From positions 1-50,941 of the IMG/VR virus record IMGVR_UViG_3300025313_000021: DNA of 50,941 nucleotides; one strand, written 5' to 3'. This DNA comes from a virus. A program made the translations under genes and the position numbers. Shown piece by piece: positions 27,840 to 46,722 of this stretch (the first letter of the stretch is position 1; every line of letters begins with the position of its first letter). The notes below the pieces were generated by a model that was not told the DNA's origin, did no database searches, and saw only the letters and a program-made list of their open reading frames with translations.

Positions 27840-29129
27840 TTAATCCATAAGCCGTGGAAAAGGACTAGACTGAAATACTCTTTTTTGTTCACCAAATAAC
27901 TTATTGCCAAATGAAGATAATATGTCTTTAACTGTATTAGACATGTTGAAATCTTTATTTTTTAAACCCTTAAGTTTAGTATTAATAGAATCTAAAGCTC
28001 CATGCATTAATCTTTTACTATCCTTATCATGCAGGAAATCATAGCGATTGTCAAATAATTGATTTTTAAGAGCAAATAACCTAGCCATATTTATCATTTT
28101 CTCTGTTTGGTATTGATGTACTACTCTGGCTGATGAAGTAATTTGAGAAGCCATCATATTAAAATCTTGGTTAGGTGGAGCTAAATTCAATAAGTCTGTT
28201 AAGAAAGATGCGCCAGGTTTCTTTATCTTATCACCCAAAAAAGATATCCCGAGAGCCATCTTAGGATCTATCTCTAGATTACCTACTGTACCAACTACTC
28301 TTTGAATATTGCTGTCCCCTATTGGTTCACTTGAGCGCTTAATATCATTAGCTAATGTGATTATACCCATAAGTTGACTAATACCTTGTATAAAACTTGA
28401 GATTGACTTAGGACTATCTTTAATTGATTGTAATATAGGAGTAGTCATATTAGCAATCTGTTGTCTTACTACCGCCTTCTTACGAAGGGCTATGTAATTA
28501 GATATTGCTATAGCTAGCTTATCCATACCATCGCGCATTACGTTTACATAGTCGGCTATGCCTGGAGGTAATTGAGTACTATGGTATCTATCTAAATCAT
28601 TTGTATTGCTTAATAGATCGCTTTGTAAAAGAGTAATGATTCCACTTACTGCATTTGCATATACATATAGTTCTATATTTCGTATGCCAAATAGATCTGC
28701 ATATATCTCAGCATCTATATTGCCTGTAATGTCAGAAGCCCCTTTTTGGAAAGTATTTACTATGGTTTGAGATAGTGGTTGTGTTCTAGTAAGATAATAA
28801 TTCTTTAGGTCTTGTATGGTTAGAGAACTAATTCCTTGTAGGTAAGTTAGATCTTCGTCTGTAAGATCTAACTCAGATATATTAATTGAGAAGTGAGCAA
28901 GAGATAATTCTATATCATTCAATTGTTCATCTAAGATTCCAGCCGTGTCCTTAACAGCATCCTTTAGGTAAATAATCTCTTGAACAGTTGGAATAAATAC
29001 AAGAGGTAATTCTGCTGCTTGCTCACGCTCACCTAAAGTTTCACCGTCACGTATAGCTGGTGGTGGATGATATGTAATATCAGGAGCAAAACCTAATAAT
29101 TCCTCATCATTACTCTTAAAGTCATTCAT
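27840..29129 (-). CDS. Helical structural protein of unknown function (429 aa)
   Basis: A Ser/Asn/Leu-rich, mostly helical protein (EIIYLKDAVKDTAGILDEQL, YHSTQLPPGIADYVNVMRDG) without recognised motifs. The start overlaps the terminase stop as TAATG. Its place between large terminase and the AAA+ gene suggests a head or packaging accessory protein. It may be a client of the AAA+ ATPase, which is inference from adjacency. Confidence 0.75.
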   Translation of the reverse strand: MNDFKSNDEELLGFAPDITYHPPPAIRDGETLGEREQAAELPLVFIPTVQEIIYLKDAVKDTAGILDEQLNDIELSLAHFSINISELDLTDEDLTYLQGISSLTIQDLKNYYLTRTQPLSQTIVNTFQKGASDITGNIDAEIYADLFGIRNIELYVYANAVSGIITLLQSDLLSNTNDLDRYHSTQLPPGIADYVNVMRDGMDKLAIAISNYIALRKKAVVRQQIANMTTPILQSIKDSPKSISSFIQGISQLMGIITLANDIKRSSEPIGDSNIQRVVGTVGNLEIDPKMALGISFLGDKIKKPGASFLTDLLNLAPPNQDFNMMASQITSSARVVHQYQTEKMINMARLFALKNQLFDNRYDFLHDKDSKRLMHGALDSINTKLKGLKNKDFNMSNTVKDILSSFGNKLFGEQKRVFQSSPFPRLMD

Positions 29130-33728: not shown

Positions 33729-33999
33729 CAGGTGTACTCCCTTGGACATCAGTTGTTATATCTCCCCACCCTAACTTGTTAGGGTAATATACCTTTTGGA
33801 TCGAAGCCAGTATTTGATCACCACTTAAGTTACGGGGGAAGGCAATACCTTCCCTGTTGTATATTGGGGGATACTCTATCTTAGCTAATCTAATGTTTCC
33901 TCTGCACATCCATATCTCTTTTGTTAATTCGGGGAAACCATCGTCAATAGATTCATTGAGAATAAGTTGTCCGTTATAACAACACCATCTTTCAAGCAA
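33709..33999 (-). CDS. Small unknown protein, first gene of minus operon (96 aa)
   Basis: It carries CCYNGQLILNESIDDGFPEL and IASIQKVYYPNKLGWGD-like segments; no family is recognised. The only usable start in frame is TTG at 33999, with no strong ribosome site, so the true N-terminus is uncertain. It overlaps the next gene by 20 nt. Confidence 0.55.
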   Translation of the reverse strand: MLERWCCYNGQLILNESIDDGFPELTKEIWMCRGNIRLAKIEYPPIYNREGIAFPRNLSGDQILASIQKVYYPNKLGWGDITTDVQGSTPDDSTKH

Positions 34000-34329
34000 G
34001 GTTACTATTTCTTGGAATATTCATGATATATACCTCTTGTTAGATATAAAAGCTGTTAAAGCCCTGGCGAAAGCTAAATAAGAGAAGGTTCCACTAAAAA
34101 TTTTAGAAGGCTTCTTAAAGCTAGGGGTAATTACCCCTAGCTTCCAGTACCCACCCCTTCCCCTACGATGTGTTCTAGGCTCATTTATTTGCTTGTGGTG
34201 CGAGCAGGTAACCCCGTTAGGGTGAGTGTATGTGTGTGTGGGTGGTAATGCAGATAATATCACAGGGGATTTATCGTTTGGTGCCCCACCCCCCCCTGTG
34301 AACTATGTGGCTGAAAGGAGGTGAAATAT
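34000..34329. promoter_or_regulatory. Divergent intergenic region with perfect 24-bp palindrome
   Basis: No convincing gene. It separates the minus operon (33.1-34.0 kb) from the plus accessory operon (from 34.3 kb). A perfect 24-bp palindrome (AGCTAGGGGTAA and complement) lies at 34119-34142. A GT-rich run at 34227-34245 and a C-rich run near 34282-34294 follow. It should hold promoters for both directions, but no consensus -35/-10 pair stood out. Confidence 0.5.
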
Positions 34330-34404
34330 ATGATATTTGAACTTTGGATTTGTGTCGCCTATTGTTGGGCGATACTGAACGCTGAGTTCGCAACCATAGA
34401 GTAA
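34330..34404 (+). CDS. 24-residue hydrophobic micro-protein
   Basis: AAAGGAGGTGAAATAT precedes the ATG, one of the best ribosome sites in the window. The product (MIFELWICVAYCWAILNAEF, then four residues) is a single hydrophobic helix. Its stop codon lies inside a hairpin (AACCATAGA / TCTATGGTT, 34392-34412), and the same frame reopens with an ATG four bases after the TAA. Confidence 0.55.
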   Translation: MIFELWICVAYCWAILNAEFATIE

Positions 34405-34407
34405 TCT

Positions 34408-34512
34408 ATGGTTGCGGGCTTAACCCCAACCACGGGGTGTAGGTGGGAGGTGGCTTGCGACACCGATGATGAGGTCTATGTAAGACCTGACCGTGAGGCA
34501 GGCTGTAGATGA
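34408..34512 (+). CDS. 34-residue micro-protein in the same frame as its neighbour
   Basis: An ATG four bases after the preceding TAA, in the same frame, opens a 34-codon frame (MVAGLTPTTGCRWEVACDTD, then VYVRPDREAGCR). There is no ribosome site of its own, so it would need re-initiation or TAA readthrough. It contains small hairpins (ACCCC/GGGGT; AGGTCT/AGACCT). It could be chance. Confidence 0.3.
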   Translation: MVAGLTPTTGCRWEVACDTDDEVYVRPDREAGCR

Positions 34513-34524
34513 AAGGAGTATAAT

Positions 34525-34761
34525 ATGAGTATTTGTAAAGGTAGAGAGCTTTACGACGCCATCATGGAATGGTGTCAGAACCCGCCCGCGGGGTTCACTG
34601 GATGGGTAGGCTATGCCTACCCGTCCAGCTGCGCAGCGTGCGCAGCTGAAAAGATTGAATGCACGAGTTTTTACATTCACAGTAACCTCGGCCAGTGCGT
34701 TAATGTTGTAATAAAGGGGAAGGAGGATCTCGGCGCATTCTACGCCGAGGTCTCTGAGTAA
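34525..34761 (+). CDS. Small Cys-rich protein encoded by hairpin-packed DNA (78 aa)
   Basis: AAAGGAG precedes the ATG. The protein (ICKGRELYDAIMEWCQNPPA, then YPSSCAACAAEKIECTSFYI) has six cysteines and a helix-strand pattern; the family is unknown. Its DNA holds at least four hairpins, including a 12-bp stem with one G-T pair at 34600-34626, a 10-bp stem at 34626-34648 and a 10-bp stem at 34726-34752. Followed by a classical terminator, so it may form its own transcript unit. Confidence 0.7.
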   Translation: MSICKGRELYDAIMEWCQNPPAGFTGWVGYAYPSSCAACAAEKIECTSFYIHSNLGQCVNVVIKGKEDLGAFYAEVSE

Positions 34762-34771
34762 AGTAAGTTGG

Positions 34772-34811
34772 GGGGAAGGGAGAGCTTACAAGCTCTCCCT
34801 TCCCCTTTTTT
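34772..34811 (+). terminator. Rho-independent terminator
   Basis: A 16-bp stem (GGGGAAGGGAGAGCTT and complement, tight loop) is followed by six T. This is the strongest terminator-like signal in the accessory region. It ends the transcript of the 78-residue gene. Confidence 0.85.
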
Positions 34812-34868
34812 GCACCCACCAAGTGGGTGACATTACGCCGCTTAACAGCGGCAGAAAGTAGGTATTAT

Positions 34869-35036
34869 ATGATGAGTTTTGAAAGTTGGATCGAAAAGAG
34901 ATACTCGGGTTGGGAACCCGAGTTAGTCTGGGGGCTTTTGGACAAGCTCCCAGAGTATGTCTGGGAGTTACGCTCGCGATATCATCGCGAGCAGCTTTCA
35001 GAAGCTGTTCGCCTTCGAAAGGAGGTGAGCAAATGA
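34869..35036 (+). CDS. Small unknown protein in hairpin-packed DNA (55 aa)
   Basis: From the ATG at 34869 the product is MMSFESWIEKRYSGWEPELV, then helical with many Glu/Arg. A moderate AAGTAGG site precedes it. Hairpins: 9 bp at 34903-34923, a three-arm alternative set at 34928-34967 (one middle arm can pair either way), 9 bp at 34972-34992, 6 bp at 34992-35007. It overlaps the next gene as ATGA. Confidence 0.65.
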   Translation: MMSFESWIEKRYSGWEPELVWGLLDKLPEYVWELRSRYHREQLSEAVRLRKEVSK

Positions 35037-35197
35037 TCAGGGACCTGATTGATGAGTTGTACCTGGAGGCAGCCCCTTGCTGGGGCTGCCTCCAGCAGGT
35101 AGACCAGGACTATGAGTCCTGGTCGGAAGACCTCGTTCTTACGGACGAGGATATCAACGCGATGTACGATGAGTACATCGCGCGAAAGGAGGGATAG
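35033..35197 (+). CDS. Small acidic protein in hairpin-packed DNA (54 aa)
   Basis: AAAGGAGGTGAGCAA precedes the ATG, so the start is clear. The product (MIRDLIDELYLEAAPCWGCL, then DEDINAMYDEYIARKEG) is strongly acidic with a C-x2-C. Its coding DNA contains a 14-bp perfect stem (35063-35095), 10-bp stems at 35102-35124 and 35158-35182 and an 8-bp one at 35131-35150. These leave almost no unpaired coding sequence. Confidence 0.75.
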   Translation: MIRDLIDELYLEAAPCWGCLQQVDQDYESWSEDLVLTDEDINAMYDEYIARKEG

Positions 35198-35211
35198 TTA
35201 GGACTGAGCTT

Positions 35212-35246
35212 ACGAGGTAGTGACCGCCTCGTTAAATAATGGTCAC
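35212..35246 (+). ncRNA. H-type pseudoknot candidate in a 5' leader
   Basis: Two interleaved stems: ACGAGG (35212-35217) with CCTCGT (35227-35232), and GTGACC (35220-35225) with GGTCAC (35241-35246). This order is the definition of an H-type pseudoknot. It lies 22 nt before the ATG of the next gene, just ahead of its ribosome site, so it could regulate translation. Confidence 0.45.
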
Positions 35247-35267
35247 GAGAAAGAGAGGTGAGTAAAT

Positions 35268-35471
35268 ATGTTAAGGTTGTTAATTTGTATTTTTATAGCA
35301 GTACTAGGTTGGTTCCTTCGAAAGAAGGACAACCTAATTGGTACCACCCTCTTATGGGTGGGGTTGGTGGGAGCAGCTTGTGTGCTGCTCCCATGGTTGG
35401 GAGGAGTGCTTGTAGTACTCCTCCTATTAGGAGGAGCAGGGTTTGTTGTTGATATATGCAGCAAGCGGTAG
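35268..35471 (+). CDS. Small membrane protein, two to three helices (67 aa)
   Basis: Hydrophobic segments LLICIFIAVLGWF, TLLWVGLVGAACVLLPWLG and VLVVLLLLGGAGFVVDI are separated by a short basic loop (LRKKDN). The layout and GW...K-D...G pattern match the 80-residue protein at 38332-38574, so the two are paralogues. The DNA carries a 13-bp interrupted stem (35305-35336), a 9-bp stem (35369-35392) and overlapping alternative stems at 35400-35436. Confidence 0.75.
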   Translation: MLRLLICIFIAVLGWFLRKKDNLIGTTLLWVGLVGAACVLLPWLGGVLVVLLLLGGAGFVVDICSKR

Positions 35472-35499
35472 CTTGCTAGATTAGAAAGGAGGGATATTA

Positions 35500-35718
35500 A
35501 TGGAATACTTGTTTAAGTTCGTGCGCTGTCAGTACAGCGCACGAATGATGTTTATCACTAACCCAGAATGGGTTAGTGATCTAGGATACAACCCTGAAGT
35601 AATAAAGGGTTGTATCCTGAAAGCAATCTGGGCACTTTATTTGCCCAGATTGTATGATGGAGCCCTAATAAGATGTGACTGGATATGGTATCTAAGTCAC
35701 GTCTCAACAAACAACTAA
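35500..35718 (+). CDS. Small aromatic-rich protein in hairpin-packed DNA (72 aa)
   Basis: AAAGGAGG precedes the ATG. The protein (MEYLFKFVRCQYSARMMFIT, then RCDWIWYLSHVSTNN) has no known family. Nearly its whole coding DNA is stems: 12 bp at 35518-35545, 12 bp at 35554-35580, 13 bp at 35583-35618, 11 bp at 35624-35652, and an interrupted 10 bp at 35675-35700. All are perfect or nearly so. It is the clearest example of the phenomenon. Confidence 0.75.
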   Translation: MEYLFKFVRCQYSARMMFITNPEWVSDLGYNPEVIKGCILKAIWALYLPRLYDGALIRCDWIWYLSHVSTNN

Positions 35719-35734
35719 AGAAAGGAGGTGAAAT

Positions 35735-35914
35735 ATGAGAATATTATCATCAACTTCTATGGTGGAAGTTGATGATATAGACTTCTGCACTGTATGTGGA
35801 GAAGTAGGTCTCCTGACATCTTGTCAGGAGATGGGCGTATGCGTTGATTGTGCATACGATTGGGGGTGGGTAATAGCCTGCCCCCTGGAAGACGACTACG
35901 AGGATTACTCGTAG
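35735..35914 (+). CDS. Small zinc-ribbon-like protein (59 aa)
   Basis: AAAGGAGGTGAAAT precedes the ATG. The product has C-x2-C ... C ... C-x2-C (FCTVCGEVGLLTSCQEMGVC, then VDCAYDWGWV) and an acidic end (EDDYEDYS). The Cys pattern suggests a zinc knuckle, as in the 72-residue protein at 38578-38796. Hairpins: 13 bp at 35745-35777, 10 bp at 35809-35831, 7 bp at 35836-35858, 9 bp at 35894-35916 containing the stop codon. Confidence 0.7.
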   Translation: MRILSSTSMVEVDDIDFCTVCGEVGLLTSCQEMGVCVDCAYDWGWVIACPLEDDYEDYS

Positions 35915-35919
35915 TCTTC

Positions 35920-35960
35920 GGAGCGGTAGAGGCTTGTTTAGCTCTACCGCTCCCCTTTTT
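35920..35960 (+). terminator. Rho-independent terminator
   Basis: A 12-bp perfect stem (GGAGCGGTAGAG and complement) with a 10-nt loop is followed by CC and five T. It closes the first small-gene operon. Confidence 0.85.
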
Positions 35961-36051
35961 CCTCCCAACAGGGGTGCTTCGCACCCCCCTCCCTACTTCC
36001 TCTTACCTCAAGCCTTCGGCTCCCCTTGTCTATTCCTATTCCAACCTACCC

Positions 36052-36246
36052 TTATCTACTACGCCTTCGGCGCCCAACGTTGATAATACAACATCCGTTT
36101 GAAAAACCACATCCAATAGCCACGCCAGTTTTTGACCACGTAGCAGAGCCATTTTTTGCCTGTCCTTTAGATGTCGTTCCCTGTAGCTGAGGTAGTCTCA
36201 AGTCAATGGTAGAGCCATTCTTAAAAACCACCTTATTGGTACTCAT
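36052..36246 (-). CDS. Possible small protein (64 aa), low confidence
   Basis: A minus-strand frame in the otherwise empty region encodes MSTNKVVFKNGSTIDLRLPQ, then a Gly/Cys-rich segment (GVAIGCGFSNGCCIINV) and a basic end (RRRRSR). It reads like a real protein, but it lies against local plus-strand transcription and has only GAGAG directly before the ATG. Confidence 0.3.
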   Translation of the reverse strand: MSTNKVVFKNGSTIDLRLPQLQGTTSKGQAKNGSATWSKTGVAIGCGFSNGCCIINVGRRRRSR

Positions 36247-36635
36247 CTCTCAAAAACAAATGGCTTTAATCCAGGGTTTTCTTTCAAGGCTTATATAGGG
36301 AGTTATTTTATGCCTCATATATAACCCTTAAAGAACCTCTTAGTGCTCCCATCAGGGGCCTTCGGCCCCTCTTCCCTATCCAACTTAACCTTATAGTATA
36401 AGTTGATAGCCTATACATGAGGATACTATTCCCCCCCACTAACCTTGATGTTGTAATAATAGTGTCCCGACCAGAGGGGCTAAACCCCCTCTGCTCTCCA
36501 GCTACAACACCTAAAAGAGGGAGGGGAGGTGCCACCATCAACTCGCCTCCTCGAGCCCCCCTCTTTAGCTTCCCTCTGTCTCATGCCTCTTTCTTCCCCT
36601 TACTTCTCCTCATCTCTTTACCTCTTTCTTTTAGT

Positions 36636-36773
36636 CAGCAGCTGCCTGCTGCCTTAAAAAGCAAAGCACATGGGGCAGACATTGTCAAGACAAACAGCGT
36701 ATCTTGACAATTCAGTTCCTTGTCTGCCCCATGTGCACCTACAATATCCAAGGCAGCAGGCATCTAGCTGCTG
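36636..36773. repeat. Three-tier nested inverted repeat (large cruciform or RNA)
   Basis: Outer stem 36636-36655 with 36750-36773 (20 bp, one 4-nt bulge). Middle stem 36666-36681 with 36721-36736 (16 bp, perfect). Inner stem 36682-36690 with 36702-36710 (9 bp) closes an 11-nt loop CAAACAGCGTA. The inner 29 bases recur almost exactly at 40901-40929. It ends 18 bases before the ATG of the next gene. Confidence 0.75.
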
Positions 36774-36791
36774 CCAAAAGGAGGTAAAAAA

Positions 36792-37157
36792 ATGAGCTTT
36801 ATAGAAGTTAAAGGGAAAAAAGAAGCGAGCCTTATCGGGCTCGCTAAGGGTTTATTGGCTCGCCCTTTGGGCGAGCTAATAGAAAGATTTAATGCTGAGA
36901 AAGGGAGCGTAAGCTCTCCTGTAATTATTACAGGAGAGCTGGCTGAGATCTTTGATCTCAGCCCAGATGCGTGCGTCTGGACTGGGATCGGACTTGGTCC
37001 CAGGGACACGGGGAACCCGTCCCCGTGGATTACAATAAAGGACGGTGAAGAGTTCAAACTCTACACCGTCCAGTTTGGACGGTACGGAGGAGCTCGCGTG
37101 AGTGAGCTCCTCCAGGAGCCTAAAAAGGCTCCTGGAAAAATCAAGCCTAGTTTCTAG
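36792..37157 (+). CDS. Unknown protein in hairpin-packed DNA (121 aa)
   Basis: AAAGGAGGTAAAAAA precedes the ATG. The protein (MSFIEVKGKKEASLIGLAKG, then SPVIITGELAEIFDLSPDAC) is of unknown family, with a basic end. Its DNA is a second run of stems: 12 bp 36854-36880, 13 bp 36912-36940, 10 bp 36941-36963, 10 bp 37086-37113, 9 bp 37112-37135, and a 10-bp stem around the stop (37141-37163). It lies between the nested inverted repeat and a terminator. Confidence 0.75.
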   Translation: MSFIEVKGKKEASLIGLAKGLLARPLGELIERFNAEKGSVSSPVIITGELAEIFDLSPDACVWTGIGLGPRDTGNPSPWITIKDGEEFKLYTVQFGRYGGARVSELLQEPKKAPGKIKPSF

Positions 37158-37192
37158 GCTTGATTTAGCCGAGGGCATTAGCCCTCGGCTTT
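36824..37192 (+). repeat. Tandem hairpin array (block 2)
   Basis: About 12 consecutive near-perfect inverted repeats cover the 121-residue gene and run into its terminator. Adjacent stems often share or compete for one arm, for example 36904-36915 and 36912-36940, or 37086-37113 and 37112-37135. As in block 1, the hairpins have unrelated sequences. Confidence 0.8.
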
Positions 37193-37194
37193 TT
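37167..37194 (+). terminator. Rho-independent terminator
   Basis: A 10-bp perfect stem (AGCCGAGGGC and complement) with a 4-nt loop is followed by four T. It ends the transcript of the 121-residue gene. A run of about 13 A (37200-37212) follows. Confidence 0.85.
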
Positions 37195-37458
37195 AATTCA
37201 AAAAAAAAAAAAGAAAGAAGGCGTAAAGTTTCAATCCCTTACTGATCAGGTCTCATTTTTCTACTTTTTCTACGGAAGATGAGAGTGGGCGGGTAGGATA
37301 TCTACCACCTGCCCTTTTCTGTTCGTGGGGAAGATAAGTCTGTGGATGACAGGGTGTTTTGCATACGGTGTGCAAGCATCCTGTTATGTATCTTGGTAAG
37401 ACCACCTAAGTTTGTATTGTTTAGGTGGATATTATGGATAAAGAAAGGAAGTGTAAAT
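37195..37458 (+). promoter_or_regulatory. Gene-free leader with A-run and CRISPR-repeat-like element
   Basis: It contains a 13-A run, the repeat-like element at 37228-37264, then GC-rich arms (GGGCGGGTAGGAT / ATCTACCACCTGCCC, an imperfect hairpin at about 37288-37316) before the next gene. The frame is open from 37342, but the ribosome site AAAGGAAG lies only before 37459, so this part is probably untranslated leader. Confidence 0.45.
37228..37264. repeat. Solitary CRISPR-repeat-like element, copy 1 (37 bp)
   Basis: It starts GTTTCAATCCCTTA and ends with TTTTTCTAC. The reverse complement therefore starts GTAGAAAAA and ends GGGATTGAAAC. The final ATTGAAAC is the 8-nt crRNA 5' handle typical of type I-A/B and III repeats (family knowledge). 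Copy 2 at 38255-38291 matches at 35 of 37 positions. There is no array and no adjacent copy. The element lies in a gene-free leader. Confidence 0.6.
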
Positions 37459-37836
37459 ATGTTTATTAATATCAGCAACCACCCATATGGGAAATGGTCA
37501 ATAGAACAAAGAGAAGGGGTAAAAGGGGATATATTAGATATGCCGTTTCCGCAAGTTGACCCCTCCTTAGACAAGGAGGGGATTAGTAAGTTAGCTATGG
37601 ATATGATGTATCAGATAGGAGAGATCCTTGATATTAAGGGGTTATCCCCCTCTCAAGTAATCCTCCATGTAATGGGGGAACAATCGTTATTTTATACTTT
37701 AACTCATATGTGTAAAGAGTTAGGGTATAAAGTAGTAGTATCTACCTCCCGCCGCGAGGCGGTAGAGAAAATATTGACGGATGGTACGGTCGAAAAGACC
37801 GCCATCTTTAAATTTATTCAATTTAGGGAGGTGTAG
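37459..37836 (+). CDS. Small Rossmann-like protein, candidate CRISPR-linked family (125 aa)
   Basis: From the ATG at 37459 (AAAGGAAG upstream): MFINISNHPYGKWSIEQREG, a strand DILDMPFPQVDP, helix, strand VILHVMGEQSLFYTL with helix, strand KVVVSTSRRE, and final strand IFKFIQFREV. This is an alternating α/β (Rossmann-like) layout with conserved-looking NHP, PFPQVDP, MGEQS and FREV. From memory, similar 110-130-residue proteins occur in anaerobic Firmicutes, some near CRISPR type III loci; I cannot confirm that. A CARF/ring-nuclease-like role is therefore only a hypothesis, encouraged by the flanking repeat-like elements. Confidence 0.65.
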   Translation: MFINISNHPYGKWSIEQREGVKGDILDMPFPQVDPSLDKEGISKLAMDMMYQIGEILDIKGLSPSQVILHVMGEQSLFYTLTHMCKELGYKVVVSTSRREAVEKILTDGTVEKTAIFKFIQFREV

Positions 37837-38042
37837 AAGTATGATAAAAAGCAAAATTAGATATTTTGAAACGGTCTCCGAAGAGGAGATCGTTCGTCAC
37901 GAGCTCCATCAGAAGCTCGCTCAGGGGTATGTATTATCCCCTGAAGAACAGGGGATGTTGGAGGAAAGGTTTGATCATCTTCGGCTTCCAGCCGAAGATA
38001 AGTTTAATAAGGTGGTTGGTGCGCTCGAACAGGAGCGCACAA
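37740..38042 (+). repeat. Tandem hairpin array (block 3)
   Basis: Stems: interrupted pair around 37743-37765, 9 bp with one G-T pair 37871-37893, 6 bp 37899-37919, 9 bp 37921-37943, 8 bp 37935-37956, 10 bp 37977-37999, 8 bp 38019-38040. They span the end of the 125-residue gene and the whole following 73-residue gene. The array stops before the 60-residue gene at 38067. Confidence 0.75.
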
Positions 38043-38062
38043 AAAGAAAGGATATGTGGTAA
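37841..38062 (+). CDS. Small helical protein in hairpin-packed DNA (73 aa)
   Basis: AGGGAGGTGTAGAAGT precedes the ATG at 37841. The product (YFETVSEEEIVRHELHQKLA, then DKFNKVVGALEQERTKRKDM) is highly charged and helical. The family is unknown. It is the second gene of the cassette between the two repeat-like elements and the last one with the hairpin-packed coding style. Confidence 0.7.
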   Translation: MIKSKIRYFETVSEEEIVRHELHQKLAQGYVLSPEEQGMLEERFDHLRLPAEDKFNKVVGALEQERTKRKDMW

Positions 38063-38066
38063 AACA

Positions 38067-38249
38067 ATGAATTTATATGAAGTTACAATAGTTTATCCTG
38101 TAACATTTACGGTAAAAGCAAATAATTTTTCATCTGCAGAAAGTATTGCTCTTGAATACTCTGATAGAGTATTTGAATCTTCTTCAATATCTCCAGTTCT
38201 CTCGTCTATAAACATTTCTGAAAAAGAAGGGAAGGGTATCAATGAATAA
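38067..38249 (+). CDS. Small unknown protein (60 aa)
   Basis: MNLYEVTIVYPVTFTVKANN is a β-rich start, followed by a helix SAESIALEYSDRVFES. It has ordinary AT-rich codon use and no hairpin array, unlike its upstream neighbour. The ATG at 38067 lies 2 nt after the previous stop, so it may be coupled. The second repeat-like element starts 5 nt after its stop. Confidence 0.6.
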   Translation: MNLYEVTIVYPVTFTVKANNFSSAESIALEYSDRVFESSSISPVLSSINISEKEGKGINE

Positions 38250-38254
38250 ATTAA

Positions 38255-38291
38255 GTTTCAATCCCTTATTAATCAGGTCTCATTTTTCTAC
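38255..38291. repeat. Solitary CRISPR-repeat-like element, copy 2 (37 bp)
   Basis: It matches copy 1 at 35 of 37 positions (differences at positions 15 and 17). The matched block begins exactly at GTTTCAATCC; flanking sequences diverge at once on both sides except for a later shared ACGGAAGA. It lies 5 nt after one gene and 40 nt before the next. It is a single unit, not an array. Confidence 0.6.
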
Positions 38292-38331
38292 TGTTGATGG
38301 TGCTGTTAACGGAAGAATAGGAGGTTAAATC

Positions 38332-38574
38332 ATGAAATGGTTAGTACCTTTATTATTCGTAGTGATGGGTTGGTTGATATTGAAGATAGGAGGTAAAGAT
38401 GATCCTCTTGGGAAAGGGATAGGAATATTTATGTTAATAGTGGGATGTATTATGTTTGGGTGGATTATTTGCCCCCACCTAGTACTTCTAGTACTAGGTA
38501 TACTGATAATAGCGGGTATGTATAAAGCGATTCAAAATATATTAGGTTCTGTTTCAAGAAAGGGTGGTGTATAA
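38332..38574 (+). CDS. Small membrane protein, paralogue of 35268-35471 (80 aa)
   Basis: Three hydrophobic segments (LVPLLFVVMGWLILKI; IFMLIVGCIMFGWIICP; LVLLVLGILIIAGMYKA) with a short K/D loop follow the same order as the 67-residue protein. ATAGGAGG lies upstream of the ATG. It uses normal AT-rich codons without a hairpin array, so the pair contrasts the two coding styles. Confidence 0.75.
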   Translation: MKWLVPLLFVVMGWLILKIGGKDDPLGKGIGIFMLIVGCIMFGWIICPHLVLLVLGILIIAGMYKAIQNILGSVSRKGGV

Positions 38575-40009: not shown

Positions 40010-40879
40010 ATGCTATCTGAACCATATAAGGGGCCTACGGGTTCAGGAACAGACGAATTAGGTATTGTGTATTATAGTGCTGTTGATGATGCTGTTAGTA
40101 GTGCTGTTGGTAGTGCTGTTGATGATGCTGTTAGTAGTGCTGTTGGGATAGCTGTTGATAATGCTGTTCGTAGAGCTGTTCGTAATGCTGTTGATAATGC
40201 TGTTGATAATGCTGTTCGTGGTGCTGTTAGTGATGTTGTTAGTGATGTTGTTGATAGTACTGTTGGTGATGCTGTTGGTGGTGCTATTGGTAATGCTGTT
40301 CGTCGTGCTGTTAGTAATGCTGTTGGTAATGCTGTTGGGATAGCTGTTGATGATGCTGTTAGTAGTACTGTTGGTGATGCTGTTGGTAATGCTGTTGGTA
40401 ATGCTGTTGATAATGCTGTTAGTAGTGCTGTTGGGATAGCTGTTGATAATGCTGTTGGTAGTGCTGTTTTTAATGCTGTTGGTAATGCTGTTGGTAGGGC
40501 TGTTGGTAGTGCTGTTGATAATGCTGTTGGTAGTGCTGTTTTTAATGCTGTTGGGATAGCTGTTGATGATGCTGTTCGTAGAGCTGTTCGTAATGCTGTT
40601 GATAATGCTGTTCGTGGTGCTGTTAGTGATGTTGTTAGTGATGTTGTTGATAGTACTGTTGGTGATGCTGTTGGTGGTGCTATTGGTAATGCTGTTCGTC
40701 GTGCTGTTAGTAATGCTGTTGGTAATGCTGTTAATAATGCTGTTAGTATTGCTGTTAGTAATGCTGTTAATGGTGCTGTTAATAGTGCTGTTGATGATGC
40801 TGTTCGTAGAGCTGTTGGTCTAGCTGTTGATAATGCTGTTGGGATAGCTGTTCGTGGTGCTGTTGATGATGCTGTTTAG
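40010..40879 (+). CDS. XXAV tetrapeptide-array protein (289 aa)
   Basis: After ~24 unique residues the whole protein is about 66 copies of a 4-residue unit X-X-Ala-Val, X being mainly Asp, Asn, Ser, Gly or Arg, coded by a 12-bp DNA unit ending GCTGTT. The unit phase never breaks. A block of ~14 units (from 40159 and again from 40564) is duplicated with one unit missing in the second copy, so segment copying occurred recently. AAGGAGGTG precedes the ATG. Such arrays are found inside DUF6745-type proteins; here one stands alone. The fold and function are unknown. Confidence 0.8.
   Translation: MLSEPYKGPTGSGTDELGIVYYSAVDDAVSSAVGSAVDDAVSSAVGIAVDNAVRRAVRNAVDNAVDNAVRGAVSDVVSDVVDSTVGDAVGGAIGNAVRRAVSNAVGNAVGIAVDDAVSSTVGDAVGNAVGNAVDNAVSSAVGIAVDNAVGSAVFNAVGNAVGRAVGSAVDNAVGSAVFNAVGIAVDDAVRRAVRNAVDNAVRGAVSDVVSDVVDSTVGDAVGGAIGNAVRRAVSNAVGNAVNNAVSIAVSNAVNGAVNSAVDDAVRRAVGLAVDNAVGIAVRGAVDDAV
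40076..40876 (+). repeat. 12-bp tandem repeat array
   Basis: About 66 units of the form NNTNNTGCTGTT. Inside it is a higher-order duplication of ~170 bp (40159-40332 and 40564-40731). Units vary mainly in the first six bases, and the GCTGTT half is nearly constant. Length change by slippage would always keep the reading frame. Confidence 0.9.
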
Positions 40880-40896: not shown

Positions 40897-40933
40897 GACG
40901 TTGTCAAGACAAACAACGTATCTTGACAACGTC
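40897..40933. repeat. Second copy of the hairpin with conserved 11-nt loop
   Basis: A 13-bp perfect stem (GACGTTGTCAAGA and complement) with loop CAAACAACGTA. The inner 29 bases equal 36682-36710 except for one loop base. Two further small hairpins follow (40958-40981, 11 bp; 40991-41004, 5 bp) before the next gene. Confidence 0.75.
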
Positions 40934-41573: not shown

Positions 41574-42851
41574 ATGAAGTTAAGAAAAACAATAACGAAA
41601 TTAACAGACAATGAAAAATCTCTTATGAAACCATTTGCTGATAAGTGGATTCAAGACACCTTAGCACCCCAAGGAGCTAATAGAGAAAGAGTAGAAAAAG
41701 GAATAGTTGACTGCTATAGATTTGCAGGACTTGAACCACCCAAACACATAGTATGGGTTAAATCACCAACTCAGTTGGTTGTAGTTGGACCAACAATTGC
41801 TTTATTAATTGAATTAAGTAAAAAGATATCTACAAATAATGATATAAAAAATATTAGTAAGACCATTGGTAAAGCTGTTTTTAATGCTGTTCGTAATACT
41901 GTTGATAATACTGTTGATAATGCTGTTCGTAATGCTGTTGGTAATGCTGTTGGTAATACTGTTGGTAATACTGTTGGTAATACTGTTGGTAATACTGTTG
42001 GTAATACTGTTGGTAGGGCTGTTCGTAATGCTGTTGATAATGCTGTTGATGATGCTGTTCGTAGAGCTGTTGGTAATGCTGTTGATAATGCTGTTGGTAA
42101 TGCTGTTGGTAATGCTGTTGATAATGCTGTTGGTAATGCTGTTGGTGATGCTGTTCGTAGGGCTATCTTAAATATAATAAGTAGATCTTGGAACAATGTT
42201 TTAGGTGGAAAATACTGGTCAGGATGGTGGTGGAGAGGCACTGCCTGCATTTCTTTTATAAGGGATGTATTGGGTTTGGAACTTTCGCAAGAAATAAGAT
42301 TGAAAAGCCAGGCTTGGGAAGACCTGATGTCTGGTGGATGGATGTGGCTACATAGAGAGTTTGCAATATGTGCAGAACCACACAACACTATCTCACGCGA
42401 TACACGAGATAGGTTACACTCAGATAATGGTCCAGCTATATCATGGTCAGATCATACTGGCTTGTGGTTCTGGCATGGCATTCAAATAGAACAATATATA
42501 ATAGAAAATCCAGAAACAATCACTGTTTCAAAAGTTATTGAGGAGACGAATGCCGAGATTCGCAGAATAATGCTAGACCGTTATATAGGAGGTCCAGGTA
42601 AATTCCTACTTGATGCTAAAGCTCAAGTATTAGATGAAGATCAAGACAGACATGGTCTTAGAACATTATTCAAATTCGACTTGGAAGGAGATGAGCCACT
42701 CGTTATGATACGGGTGCATTGTGTAAGAAAGGATGGTGTTATTGACACATATTTTCTACGTATTGATCCCAAACATACGACATGTAAGAAAGCAATAGCT
42801 TCAACATTTAAAAAGCAACAAAACAACTATCGGCCGATAGTTGAAAGTTAA
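41574..42851 (+). CDS. DUF6745-like protein with internal XXAV array (425 aa)
   Basis: Residues ~10-75 (WIQDTLAPQGANRERVEKGI, then GLEPPKHIVWVKSPTQL) and ~195-425 (RLHSDNGPAISWSDHTGLWF, WHGIQIEQYIIENPETITV, RIMLDRYIGGPGKFLLDA, then YFLRIDPKHTTCKKA) match, as I recall, the family now called DUF6745: LH-x-DGPAI, WHG, ITV-x-x-I and RIM-RYG patterns. Residues ~98-197 are an XXAV array of ~25 units. GAGAGGAGG precedes the ATG. Homologues commonly have a short such stretch; here it is expanded. The function of the family is not known. Confidence 0.75.
   Translation: MKLRKTITKLTDNEKSLMKPFADKWIQDTLAPQGANRERVEKGIVDCYRFAGLEPPKHIVWVKSPTQLVVVGPTIALLIELSKKISTNNDIKNISKTIGKAVFNAVRNTVDNTVDNAVRNAVGNAVGNTVGNTVGNTVGNTVGNTVGRAVRNAVDNAVDDAVRRAVGNAVDNAVGNAVGNAVDNAVGNAVGDAVRRAILNIISRSWNNVLGGKYWSGWWWRGTACISFIRDVLGLELSQEIRLKSQAWEDLMSGGWMWLHREFAICAEPHNTISRDTRDRLHSDNGPAISWSDHTGLWFWHGIQIEQYIIENPETITVSKVIEETNAEIRRIMLDRYIGGPGKFLLDAKAQVLDEDQDRHGLRTLFKFDLEGDEPLVMIRVHCVRKDGVIDTYFLRIDPKHTTCKKAIASTFKKQQNNYRPIVES
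41866..42165 (+). repeat. 12-bp tandem repeat array inside the DUF6745-like gene
   Basis: About 25 units of the same NNTNNTGCTGTT type (some ACTGTT) as the array at 40076-40876, including seven consecutive GGTAATACTGTT-like units. The similarity of units suggests that the two arrays arose from each other or exchange sequence. Confidence 0.85.
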
Positions 42852-43420: not shown

Positions 43421-43729
43421 ATGGATAATACACTTAAAACCAAGGTAATACATATAAAAGAAGCGCCTTCTGATTTTAAGGGAAATCCTTTATATGTATA
43501 TATTGGACGACCAAGTATGTTTGGTAATCCATTTGCAATTACGGCAACAACCTCACGGAGTGAGGTTGTTGCCTTGTTTAGAGAATACTTTACTGAGCAA
43601 ATAAAGTATAAAGATTTTCAAATTGAGGTAGAAGCTCTCCGTGGCAAAACATTAGTTTGTTTTTGTAAACCCCATGCTTGCCATGGAGATGTAATTGCCT
43701 CATACTTAAACAACTCTCATGGAGAATAA
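43421..43729 (+). CDS. DUF4326 domain protein (102 aa)
   Basis: YIGRPSMFGNPFAI at residues ~26-39 and LVCFCKPHACHGDVIASYL at ~78-96 are the signature of the DUF4326 family: a GRPS-x-FGNPF strand and a Cys/His cluster C-x-C-x2-x-C-H-G-D. Family members are found in many phages and bacteria, and the function is unknown. The Cys/His set suggests metal binding. AAGGAGAG upstream. First gene of the RNA-repair operon. Confidence 0.8.
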   Translation: MDNTLKTKVIHIKEAPSDFKGNPLYVYIGRPSMFGNPFAITATTSRSEVVALFREYFTEQIKYKDFQIEVEALRGKTLVCFCKPHACHGDVIASYLNNSHGE

Positions 43730-45423: not shown

Positions 45424-46722
45424 ATGACTAACCTTCGTATATCTAGTAATGCATTAGTTATACTTGTGGGATGTAGCGGTTCAGGAAAATCTACCCTTGC
45501 TAAAAGACATTTTCCTCGTGAGTCGATAGTATCTTCAGACCAATGTAGAAGACTTATAAAACATGGCAAGTTAGATATGGTTTGTTCAGAGGCAGACCTT
45601 CAAGAGTATAATGATGGTGCTTTTCTTATATTTCATAATTGGATACGAGCCAAGTTAAAATATAATATGTTAACAGTAGTAGACGCTACTAATACTACCG
45701 ATAAAGCTAGGACTAACATAGAAAATATAGCTAAAGAACAACACAAGCCCATAGTGTATATAATACTAACTACGCCACCAGTCTCATGTATTAGTAATGA
45801 TAAGCTACGACCGTTCCCTGTTGGGGAGAAGGTTATAGAGAAGCAATATCTACAGCTTATACACAGTCTAGACACATTTAAGAACAAAAAAGATATGAGT
45901 GTGTATTATTTAGATAATATAGATGATATATACATAGAAAATACTACTGTATCTTATGCTTTAGAATTAACCATACCCATACATCATAAGAAAATAGATA
46001 TTATAGGTGATGTACATGGCTGTTTAGATATATTAAAAGAATTACTCATTAAGTTAGGGTATACCACTAACAATGATGATTTCTACGCTCATCCTGAGCG
46101 TATTTTTGTATTAACAGGGGACGTAATAGATAGAGGTCCCGATCCATATCTCACATTTGAGTTTGTTAGGACGCACGTAGAGTTTGGATATGCCCTCACA
46201 GTAATGGGTAACCACGAAAATAAATTCGCCAGATATTTAGCTGGCAGAGATGTAAAGATAAAACACGGACTACAAAAAACAATAGATCAGCTAAATTATT
46301 TTAATGAAGATGGTTCATTTAATTTAGAAGATATGAAAGCCTTCTTATTTAAACTACCCCCATATTTAATATATGAAGGCTTATCTAAGCCTATTGTTAT
46401 TACTCATGCTGCATTTAAAAAGGAATATTTAGGGCGGAGGGACAAAGAAGTAAAAGATTATTGTATGTATGGTCCGACCTGTGGTCGGGATCCAAACGAT
46501 TTCCCTATACGTATACCGTGGGAAGATACATATGACGGACCAACTGTAGTATATGGTCATGTCGTATCTGAAGATCAGCAAATTAAAATCACTAATAATA
46601 CATATGGAATAGATACAGGTGCTGTTTTTGGTGGTTCACTTTCAGCACTTCGTCTACCTGAATTTGATATTGTATCTATTCCTGCTAAACAAACTTACTT
46701 TGGGAGGTATGCCGATGGCTAA
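45424..46722 (+). CDS. Polynucleotide kinase plus metallophosphatase fusion, Pnkp-like (432 aa)
   Basis: The N-terminal P-loop GCSGSGKST (16-24) with SSDQCRR and DATN is a kinase of the T4 Pnk/bacterial Pnkp type. The C-terminal metallophosphoesterase has IIGDVHGC (193-200), LTGDVIDRG (230-238), MGNHENK (261-267) and later YGHV. Bacterial Pnkp couples these same activities (5' kinase, 2',3'-phosphatase) for RNA repair, with the ligase here as a separate gene. AAGGAGATTT precedes the ATG. It probably heals tRNA cut by host anticodon nucleases. Confidence 0.85.
   Translation: MTNLRISSNALVILVGCSGSGKSTLAKRHFPRESIVSSDQCRRLIKHGKLDMVCSEADLQEYNDGAFLIFHNWIRAKLKYNMLTVVDATNTTDKARTNIENIAKEQHKPIVYIILTTPPVSCISNDKLRPFPVGEKVIEKQYLQLIHSLDTFKNKKDMSVYYLDNIDDIYIENTTVSYALELTIPIHHKKIDIIGDVHGCLDILKELLIKLGYTTNNDDFYAHPERIFVLTGDVIDRGPDPYLTFEFVRTHVEFGYALTVMGNHENKFARYLAGRDVKIKHGLQKTIDQLNYFNEDGSFNLEDMKAFLFKLPPYLIYEGLSKPIVITHAAFKKEYLGRRDKEVKDYCMYGPTCGRDPNDFPIRIPWEDTYDGPTVVYGHVVSEDQQIKITNNTYGIDTGAVFGGSLSALRLPEFDIVSIPAKQTYFGRYADG

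Follow-up and report, generated by a model that had tools for sequence, protein, structure and literature searches.

The complete virus record IMGVR_UViG_3300025313_000021 (50,941 bases; the window) contains a cassette of small plus-strand genes whose coding sequences are predicted to form chains of unrelated hairpins. The minus strand of the window encodes the sheath, portal, and large terminase of a contractile-tailed phage, hence of a virus with double-stranded DNA (dsDNA). Seven genes between 34.5 and 37.2 kb are predicted to fold far more stably than synonymous versions of themselves, the property recurs at the equivalent position in a second phage, whose genes there are unrelated, and selection likely acts on the sense messenger RNA (mRNA).

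Perfect hairpins were defined as stems of at least 8 bp closed by loops of 3–12 nt, the only loop range searched. The whole window contains 87, and 39 of these start within 34–38 kb, where the density is 7–14 per kb versus 0–3 per kb over most of the window. The densest 1.5-kb stretch holds 20 hairpins compared to 0.20 expected from base composition (p = 4e-33). Folding was measured against 100 synonymous-codon shuffles per gene that kept the protein and the codon usage, and the seven genes were 43–101% more stable than their own shuffles, with z-scores of −4.9 to −9.0. A preliminary description of this DNA had noted excess hairpins in six small genes, and this observation is confirmed by z-scores of −5.1, −8.3, −4.9, −6.6, −8.6, and −5.4 for the genes starting at 34525, 34869, 35033, 35268, 35500, and 35735, respectively. 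Gene 7 (36792–37157, z −9.0) lies beyond the range given there, 34390–35960, and is among the strongest. The genes at 37459 and 37781 have a moderate excess (z −4.8 and −5.8 by codon shuffles). Stricter shuffles, 20 per gene, nearly held the dinucleotide counts (summed change at most 6) and gave z-scores of −5.3 to −10.8 for the seven genes. The native genes are thus far more stable by both comparisons, codon- and dinucleotide-shuffled, that had been proposed as the check, and an artifact of composition or codon bias is ruled out. The excess structure is real and stronger than first stated.

The six genes do lie inside the originally described stretch, but the feature is wider: it is strong to about 37190, weak from there on, and ends at about 38,062. 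The 35.95–36.6 kb interval between the two hairpin blocks is mostly without enrichment. Six genes tested between 38332 and 39957 had no excess (z −2.0 to +1.2), and six structural-strand genes had z-scores of −0.8 to −2.5. In a 161.4-kb record of the same phage, no 1.5 kb of the first 124.5 kb, a stretch that lies almost wholly upstream of the window, holds more than 6 hairpins. The earlier statement that the 38–43 kb genes lack the structure holds for the six tested at 38.3–40.0 kb and not for the gene at 43421. This is a DUF4326 gene (43421–43729) with an isolated folding excess (z −3.9) and a 14-bp perfect hairpin at 43543–43573.

The claim that almost every base lies in an 8–14 bp stem was too strong, because perfect stems of at least 8 bp cover 15–45% of each of the seven genes. 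The predicted folds pair 60–69% of the bases in the seven genes versus 48–63% in three control genes. The difference between cassette and controls is the long perfect stems, not the share of paired bases. Direct repeats in 34380–37200 consist only of ribosome-site boxes and short two- or three-copy matches, with no common hairpin family. A dispersed repeat family is ruled out by the lack of shared hairpin sequence in this stretch, and the view that these are not dispersed palindromic elements of the Rickettsia type, which share sequence, was correct. The window has no Rfam match at gathering score, and the weaker matches were taken as chance, except for CRISPR-DR8, which is taken up below; one of them, to snR86 at 36588–36823, was taken as a chance alignment to a long inverted repeat. 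The parts of the locus are as follows.

34330–34404, plus strand: possible open reading frame (ORF) of 24 amino acids at the left edge, read from the sequence; a hairpin at 34389–34416 spans its stop.
34525–34761, plus strand: hairpin-coded gene 1, 78 amino acids; z −5.1, and −8.8 with dinucleotides nearly held.
34869–35036, plus strand: hairpin-coded gene 2, 55 amino acids; z −8.3.
35033–35197, plus strand: hairpin-coded gene 3, 54 amino acids, with a 4-nt overlap with gene 2; z −4.9; 14-bp stem at 35063–35095.
35268–35471, plus strand: hairpin-coded gene 4, 67 amino acids, hydrophobic and membrane-like by eye; z −6.6.
35500–35718, plus strand: hairpin-coded gene 5, 72 amino acids, with the top excess of 101%; z −8.6; stems at 35518–35545, 35554–35580, 35583–35618, and 35624–35652.
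35735–35914, plus strand: hairpin-coded gene 6, 59 amino acids, cysteine-rich and zinc-ribbon-like by eye; z −5.4.
36792–37157, plus strand: hairpin-coded gene 7, 121 amino acids; z −9.0, and −10.8 with dinucleotides nearly held; stem chain at 36824–37166.
37167–37190, plus strand: terminator-like hairpin with a T tail, 3' of gene 7; five such sites occur in 33900–38500 versus a chance expectation of 4.5.
37228–37264, plus strand: solitary CRISPR-repeat-like unit 1 (CRISPR, clustered regularly interspaced short palindromic repeats); aligns to the whole Rfam CRISPR-DR8 model at 25.5 bits, below the gathering score of 39.
37459–37836, plus strand: Csx20-like ring nuclease gene, 125 amino acids, moderately hairpin-coded; CAS_Csx20 E-value 4e-10, below the cut-off; z −4.8 and −5.5, and −3.6 with dinucleotides nearly held.
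37841–38062, plus strand: hairpin-coded gene, 73 amino acids, start picked by its ribosome site; z −5.8 from the start at 37781, and −4.8 from 37841 with dinucleotides nearly held.
38255–38291, plus strand: solitary CRISPR-repeat-like unit 2, with two differences from unit 1; CRISPR-DR8 29.1 bits, E-value 0.0005, below the gathering score of 39.

Several other elements were noted around these genes. Interlocked GAGG/CCTC and GTGACC/GGTCAC pairs precede gene 4 at 35213–35246, where an H-type pseudoknot is possible by eye. Similar inverted elements at 36681–36711 and 40897–40933 (TTGTCAAGACAAACA...TATCTTGACAA) are possible operator or promoter sites, and the first of them sits within a longer inverted repeat preceding gene 7. 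The gap between the hairpin blocks (36000–36600) has a reversed GC skew, three GCCTTCGGC-type loops, and no clear gene.

A second hairpin-rich phage was found among loci around related terminases. Its 26.5-kb contig, IMGVR_UViG_3300002966_000057, encodes a terminase 36% identical to that of the window phage. Among 74 such loci (L027–L100), many of them short and without cover of the corresponding place, the best 1.5 kb of this contig (L031) holds 12 hairpins, compared to at most 4 in the others. As in the window, the second cassette sits on the strand opposite to the terminase gene and upstream of it, at a distance of about 3.7–7.2 kb (from about 7.7 kb outward in the window); it spans at least 4.5 kb and reaches the contig end. 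Six of its cassette ORFs have z-scores of −2.8 to −7.2 versus −1.4 to +1.3 for nine flanking ORFs; one of the six, an ORF of 558 amino acids, was tested as an 81-codon fragment. The second-phage proteins have no similarity to the window cassette proteins at an E-value of 0.01. Two phages with unrelated genes thus share the property at the same place, and hairpin coding belongs to the locus rather than to a protein family. Across the two cassettes, 49 of 60 hairpins lie within a single gene, with stems of 8–14 bp, and 38 of these 49 stems are only 8–10 bp.

Homologue searches with genes 5 and 7, the Csx20-like gene, and one second-phage gene, together with a DNA search of named phages, returned identical copies or nothing and no diverged homologue; of the window genes, the cover is genes 5 and 7 and the Csx20-like gene, the remaining cassette genes not being scanned individually. 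Scans with these sequences, the terminase, and a neighbor gene returned the same phage, the second phage, a sister phage (L012) whose sequence stops short of the locus, and relatives that lack the property. In the fetched sequences of other large relatives (244, 198, and 100 kb, and that of Moorella phage MTATph1), hairpins number at most 5 per 1.5 kb. Seven of 39 MTATph1 genes tested at about 155–174 kb have a z-score of −3 or lower, the lowest being −6.2, with an excess below 7 kcal per 100 nt save in two short ORFs. This is a weak, diffuse tendency and is not counted as a case. A stem-coverage score over 1,602 ORFs was a blunt tool: it selected ORFs on the antisense strand and left most of the second cassette undetected. 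The seven window genes have a best E-value of 0.06 in Pfam and PHROGs, Pfam matches of eight second-phage cassette proteins were uninformative, and the predicted structure of gene 7 has a predicted local distance difference test score (pLDDT) of 45.

Mismatches within the stems were used to separate selection on RNA from selection on DNA. A broken stem pair would be expected to tend to G-U under selection on the sense RNA, and A-C would be as good or better under selection on DNA or on the antisense RNA. Single in-stem mismatches with arms of at least 3 were G-U, A-C, and other in 11, 1, and 7 cases in the window cassette, and the counts in the second cassette were the same (11, 1, and 7). Control stretches of the window gave 21, 21, and 105 and 6, 7, and 43, a summed G-U:A-C of 27:28. 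The uncontrolled difference between sense and antisense folding is largely composition, and a controlled test was used in its place. The per-base excess was larger in sense than in antisense for 12 of the 14 cassette genes tested, once by just 0.1, versus 1 of 8 controls; by z-score, sense exceeded antisense in just 9 of 14. In this test, in the pairing and site-opening tests below, and in the reading of predicted folds by eye, one ORF of the second phage was started 3 nt upstream of the ATG (7344). The preliminary description had proposed selection for structure at the DNA or RNA level; selection is supported, and the G-U excess over A-C and the 12 of 14 genes favor sense RNA over DNA. Structure is likely, though not proven, to be selected in the sense mRNA.

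The proteins take part in the pairing. The stems of at least 10 bp allowed by any synonymous coding place 6 of 7 cassette proteins at or above at least 97% of 100 shuffled proteins, and none of 8 control proteins stands out at the 5% level. The coding hairpins use all three codon registers alike (19:16:14). Together these results indicate that amino acids were chosen, or tolerated, for pairing, and therefore the cassette proteins themselves are fitted to the stems. They had been described as ordinary, which is only partly right given an amino acid order adapted to carry long stems. At 15 gene starts, mean pairing was 0.40–0.53 over the ribosome site and start and mostly 0.6–0.8 from codon 10 on. 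Several genes in both phages have, by eye, a short hairpin immediately 5' of a AGAAAGGAG-like ribosome site. The median cost of opening a 36-nt site, about the footprint of a guide, was 21.5–21.6 kcal/mol in both cassettes versus 14–15 in the shuffles (14.2 where the native median is 21.5) and 10.1 in control genes.

The edge of the cassette carries CRISPR-related features. The protein encoded at 37459–37836 matches NCBIfam CAS_Csx20 (NF040559) over residues 65–124 at 40 bits, with a cut-off of 70 and an E-value of 4e-10. Its identity to a bacterial relative, which also scores below the family cut-off, is 34%. Examined for a CARF-like fold, a single-sequence structure model had a pLDDT of 70 and a best fold-search Z of 5.4 with no clear match, and a sequence search found no convincing solved structure. 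The gene is a candidate Csx20-like ring nuclease of type III CRISPR, and cleavage of cyclic tetra-adenylate would be expected from the family. Csx20 degrades cyclic tetra-adenylate and was found in 4 of 28,114 phage genomes (PMC12409355). Bacterial Csx20 genes were collected as 30 loci from 398 genomes of one phylum, of which 29 were tested and one, shorter than 240 nt, was dropped. Their mean z-score was −0.65 with a minimum of −2.5 (−2.7 for one gene in a one-strand scan), and none had an excess comparable to the phage copy at −5.5. Because the tested bacterial relatives have no comparable excess, the simplest reading is that the folding excess of this gene was gained within the phage locus.

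Two 37-nt units that resemble CRISPR repeats (37228 and 38255), 1,027 bp apart, flank the Csx20-like gene and its neighbors. Both align to the full CRISPR-DR8 model below its gathering score. They are not in an array, and the window has no third unit within 3 mismatches. They resemble the repeats of a Methylocaldum plasmid array with 16 copies (the first degenerate) and spacers of about 34 nt, and 3 of the 398 genomes have one imperfect match each. Solitary repeat units are able to function as RNA anti-CRISPRs (Racr), with anti-CRISPR (acr) genes enriched within 1 kb of them (PMC10651486), and the two units here are candidates for this role.

Our leading explanation, held tentatively and at somewhat below an even chance, is that the cassette mRNAs are armored against RNA-directed immunity, most likely type III CRISPR-Cas. 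The locus would be an operon-like cassette of small phage genes in which selection at synonymous and amino acid positions has made each message fold into one short hairpin after another, with the ribosome site and first codons left comparatively open. Such a closed message would be hard for guide RNAs to invade, and the single-strand ribonucleases (RNases) triggered by cyclic oligoadenylate would find little to cut. The protected messages would be translated first and would deliver the counter-defense encoded at the cassette edge, the Csx20-like ring nuclease and the two CRISPR-repeat mimics; later genes would then have no need of armor. We infer early expression, a type III CRISPR system in the host, and the protection itself. 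Armor is favored because it accounts for a structure that is selected in RNA and bound to one locus, for gene starts that are more open, for duplexes that are short, and for neighbors related to CRISPR. Among the causes listed in the preliminary description, protection from RNA attack fits best.

Several results weigh against armor directed at type III CRISPR. A narrower mismatch census gave weaker support, with G-U:A-C of 7:1 in the window (p = 0.04–0.05) and 11:1 in the second phage (p = 0.005–0.01). The antisense excess is nearly as large as the sense excess, because most pairs are Watson-Crick. For stems of at least 12 bp, only 4 of 7 cassette proteins stand out. Wide-open 36-nt sites are rare in control genes too (2% versus 1%), and UA steps are not hidden, being 42% unpaired versus 28% for all steps. 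The Csx20-like gene is only moderately structured and its family score is under the cut-off. No match to the 37-nt unit occurs in the 26.5-kb contig of the second phage, and the nine of its proteins scanned in Pfam, the others not being scanned, have no counter-defense match. The genome has at least 174.8 kb and the armored part is less than 4 kb, so little is protected unless these genes act first.

General armor is the main rival, doubtful in our judgment but fitting nearly as well as armor against type III CRISPR, which we consider likeliest. The hairpins would give long-lived mRNAs that resist single-strand RNases of the host or made by the phage, with no special link to CRISPR. It accommodates structure in the sense RNA that exceeds the level in the RNA phage MS2, the hairpins that in both phages immediately precede several ribosome sites (seen by eye), and the lack of recognized CRISPR features in what was scanned of the second phage's 26.5 kb. 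It does not predict a Csx20-like gene and CRISPR-repeat-like units at the cassette edge, the six structural-strand genes have no excess although they also need stable mRNA, and UA and A-rich steps remain exposed. Expression control, in which structure tunes translation speed, blocks Rho-dependent termination, or couples small genes, is improbable. The less paired ribosome sites and first codons and the chains of short ORFs with strong ribosome sites are in line with it. However, control structures are normally few and placed, and here, in two phages whose cassette genes are unrelated, hairpins run through entire genes and use the three codon registers alike. Slow translation, suggested in the preliminary description, likewise leaves a one-place property in two phages with unrelated genes unexplained.

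The DNA-level and processing readings fit worse. Cruciforms, a replication or packaging site, or mutational template switching that makes inverted repeats would be consistent with the near-equal antisense excess, a locus close to the switch of strand that separates structural from other genes, proteins fitted to stems, and the 11 of 60 hairpins that are not within one gene. This cause is already weakened and quite improbable: neither DNA nor mutation favors G-U so far over A-C within stems, and pairing is lower at gene starts than within gene bodies. RNase III processing sites or a double-stranded RNA decoy, also on the earlier list, would account for many perfect stems but are very improbable, because the usual RNase III substrate is a two-turn duplex and such duplexes are absent, coding stems reach at most 14 bp and mostly 8–10 bp, and no motif is common to the stems.

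Other IMG/VR records hold the window phage, one of 161,400 bases, and their overlap gives a genome of at least 174.8 kb. The locus is 100% identical across them; one record is 99.97% identical with two gaps over 13.2 kb. Among named phages, the nearest terminases are those of Moorella phage MTATph1 (35.7%) and Bacillus phage KLEB27-3 (32.5%), and therefore a host from the Bacillota is possible. A polynucleotide kinase-phosphatase-like protein (AAA_33 and Metallophos) encoded at 45424–46722 possibly serves RNA repair and would be a further hint of conflict over RNA. The repetitive coding stretches 40010–40879 and 41866–42166 resemble each other, and one record of the phage starts inside the first. 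A Clp-like ATPase homologue at 27840–29129 is shorter than that of L012 (5515–7938), which presumably has an intein inside its P-loop (GSGKC...HNT), judging from the translation.

The cassette was compared to known systems, the phages among them by the same folding test. Three MS2 genes had an excess of 28–40% compared to 43–101% in the cassette, and 30 SPO1 and T5 genes had −13 to 25% (z −2.9 to +1.1). MS2 and the cassette share RNA in the bacterial cytoplasm and coding sequence full of hairpins; the MS2 RNA is the genome, whereas the cassette RNA is only mRNA and has the larger excess. The SPO1 host-takeover and T5 first-step-transfer genes are expressed first, and the database record of SPO1 notes host shutoff and that of T5 says that the repeat enters the cell first. 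They resemble the cassette in being small genes and differ in having no comparable folding excess. The likeness to Racr is that both solitary CRISPR-repeat-like units are found no more than 0.5 kb from an anti-CRISPR-like gene; it concerns the cassette edge rather than the hairpins, and the activity is a candidate one. Genome-scale ordered RNA structure (GORS) of animal and plant RNA viruses is likewise pervasive coding structure over order-randomized controls with short duplexes, tied there to escape from innate RNA sensing; the excess reaches 16% in the panel, with a threshold of 3% (PMC3950689). The seven genes exceed order-randomized controls of the same composition by their 43–101% under our own folding settings, a figure obtained by methods that differ from those behind the 16%. 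GORS extends over whole genomes of positive-strand RNA viruses (PMC3950689), and in the sequence fetched the cassette is one locus of a dsDNA phage. The cassette may work like GORS, yet it is not GORS. Among the titles and abstract openings listed from the open-licence literature on phage coding structure or RNA evasion, there was no report of such a locus.

Two distantly related dsDNA viruses thus have, at one locus, mRNAs predicted to be more structured than the genome of an RNA phage. If the armor explanation is true, this would be a new evasion of RNA-targeting immunity, in logic comparable to GORS of animal viruses, and it would be testable whether mRNA folding alone blinds type III CRISPR. 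It is possible, and more tentative still, that DNA phages can write an entire counter-defense operon, even in its choice of amino acids, as self-folding mRNA unreadable to RNA-guided immunity. This would be a coding-level anti-CRISPR that needs no protein or escape mutation and keeps a fixed genomic position while its genes change. Codon-level excess folding may serve as a signature to find counter-defense genes that have no recognizable protein family.

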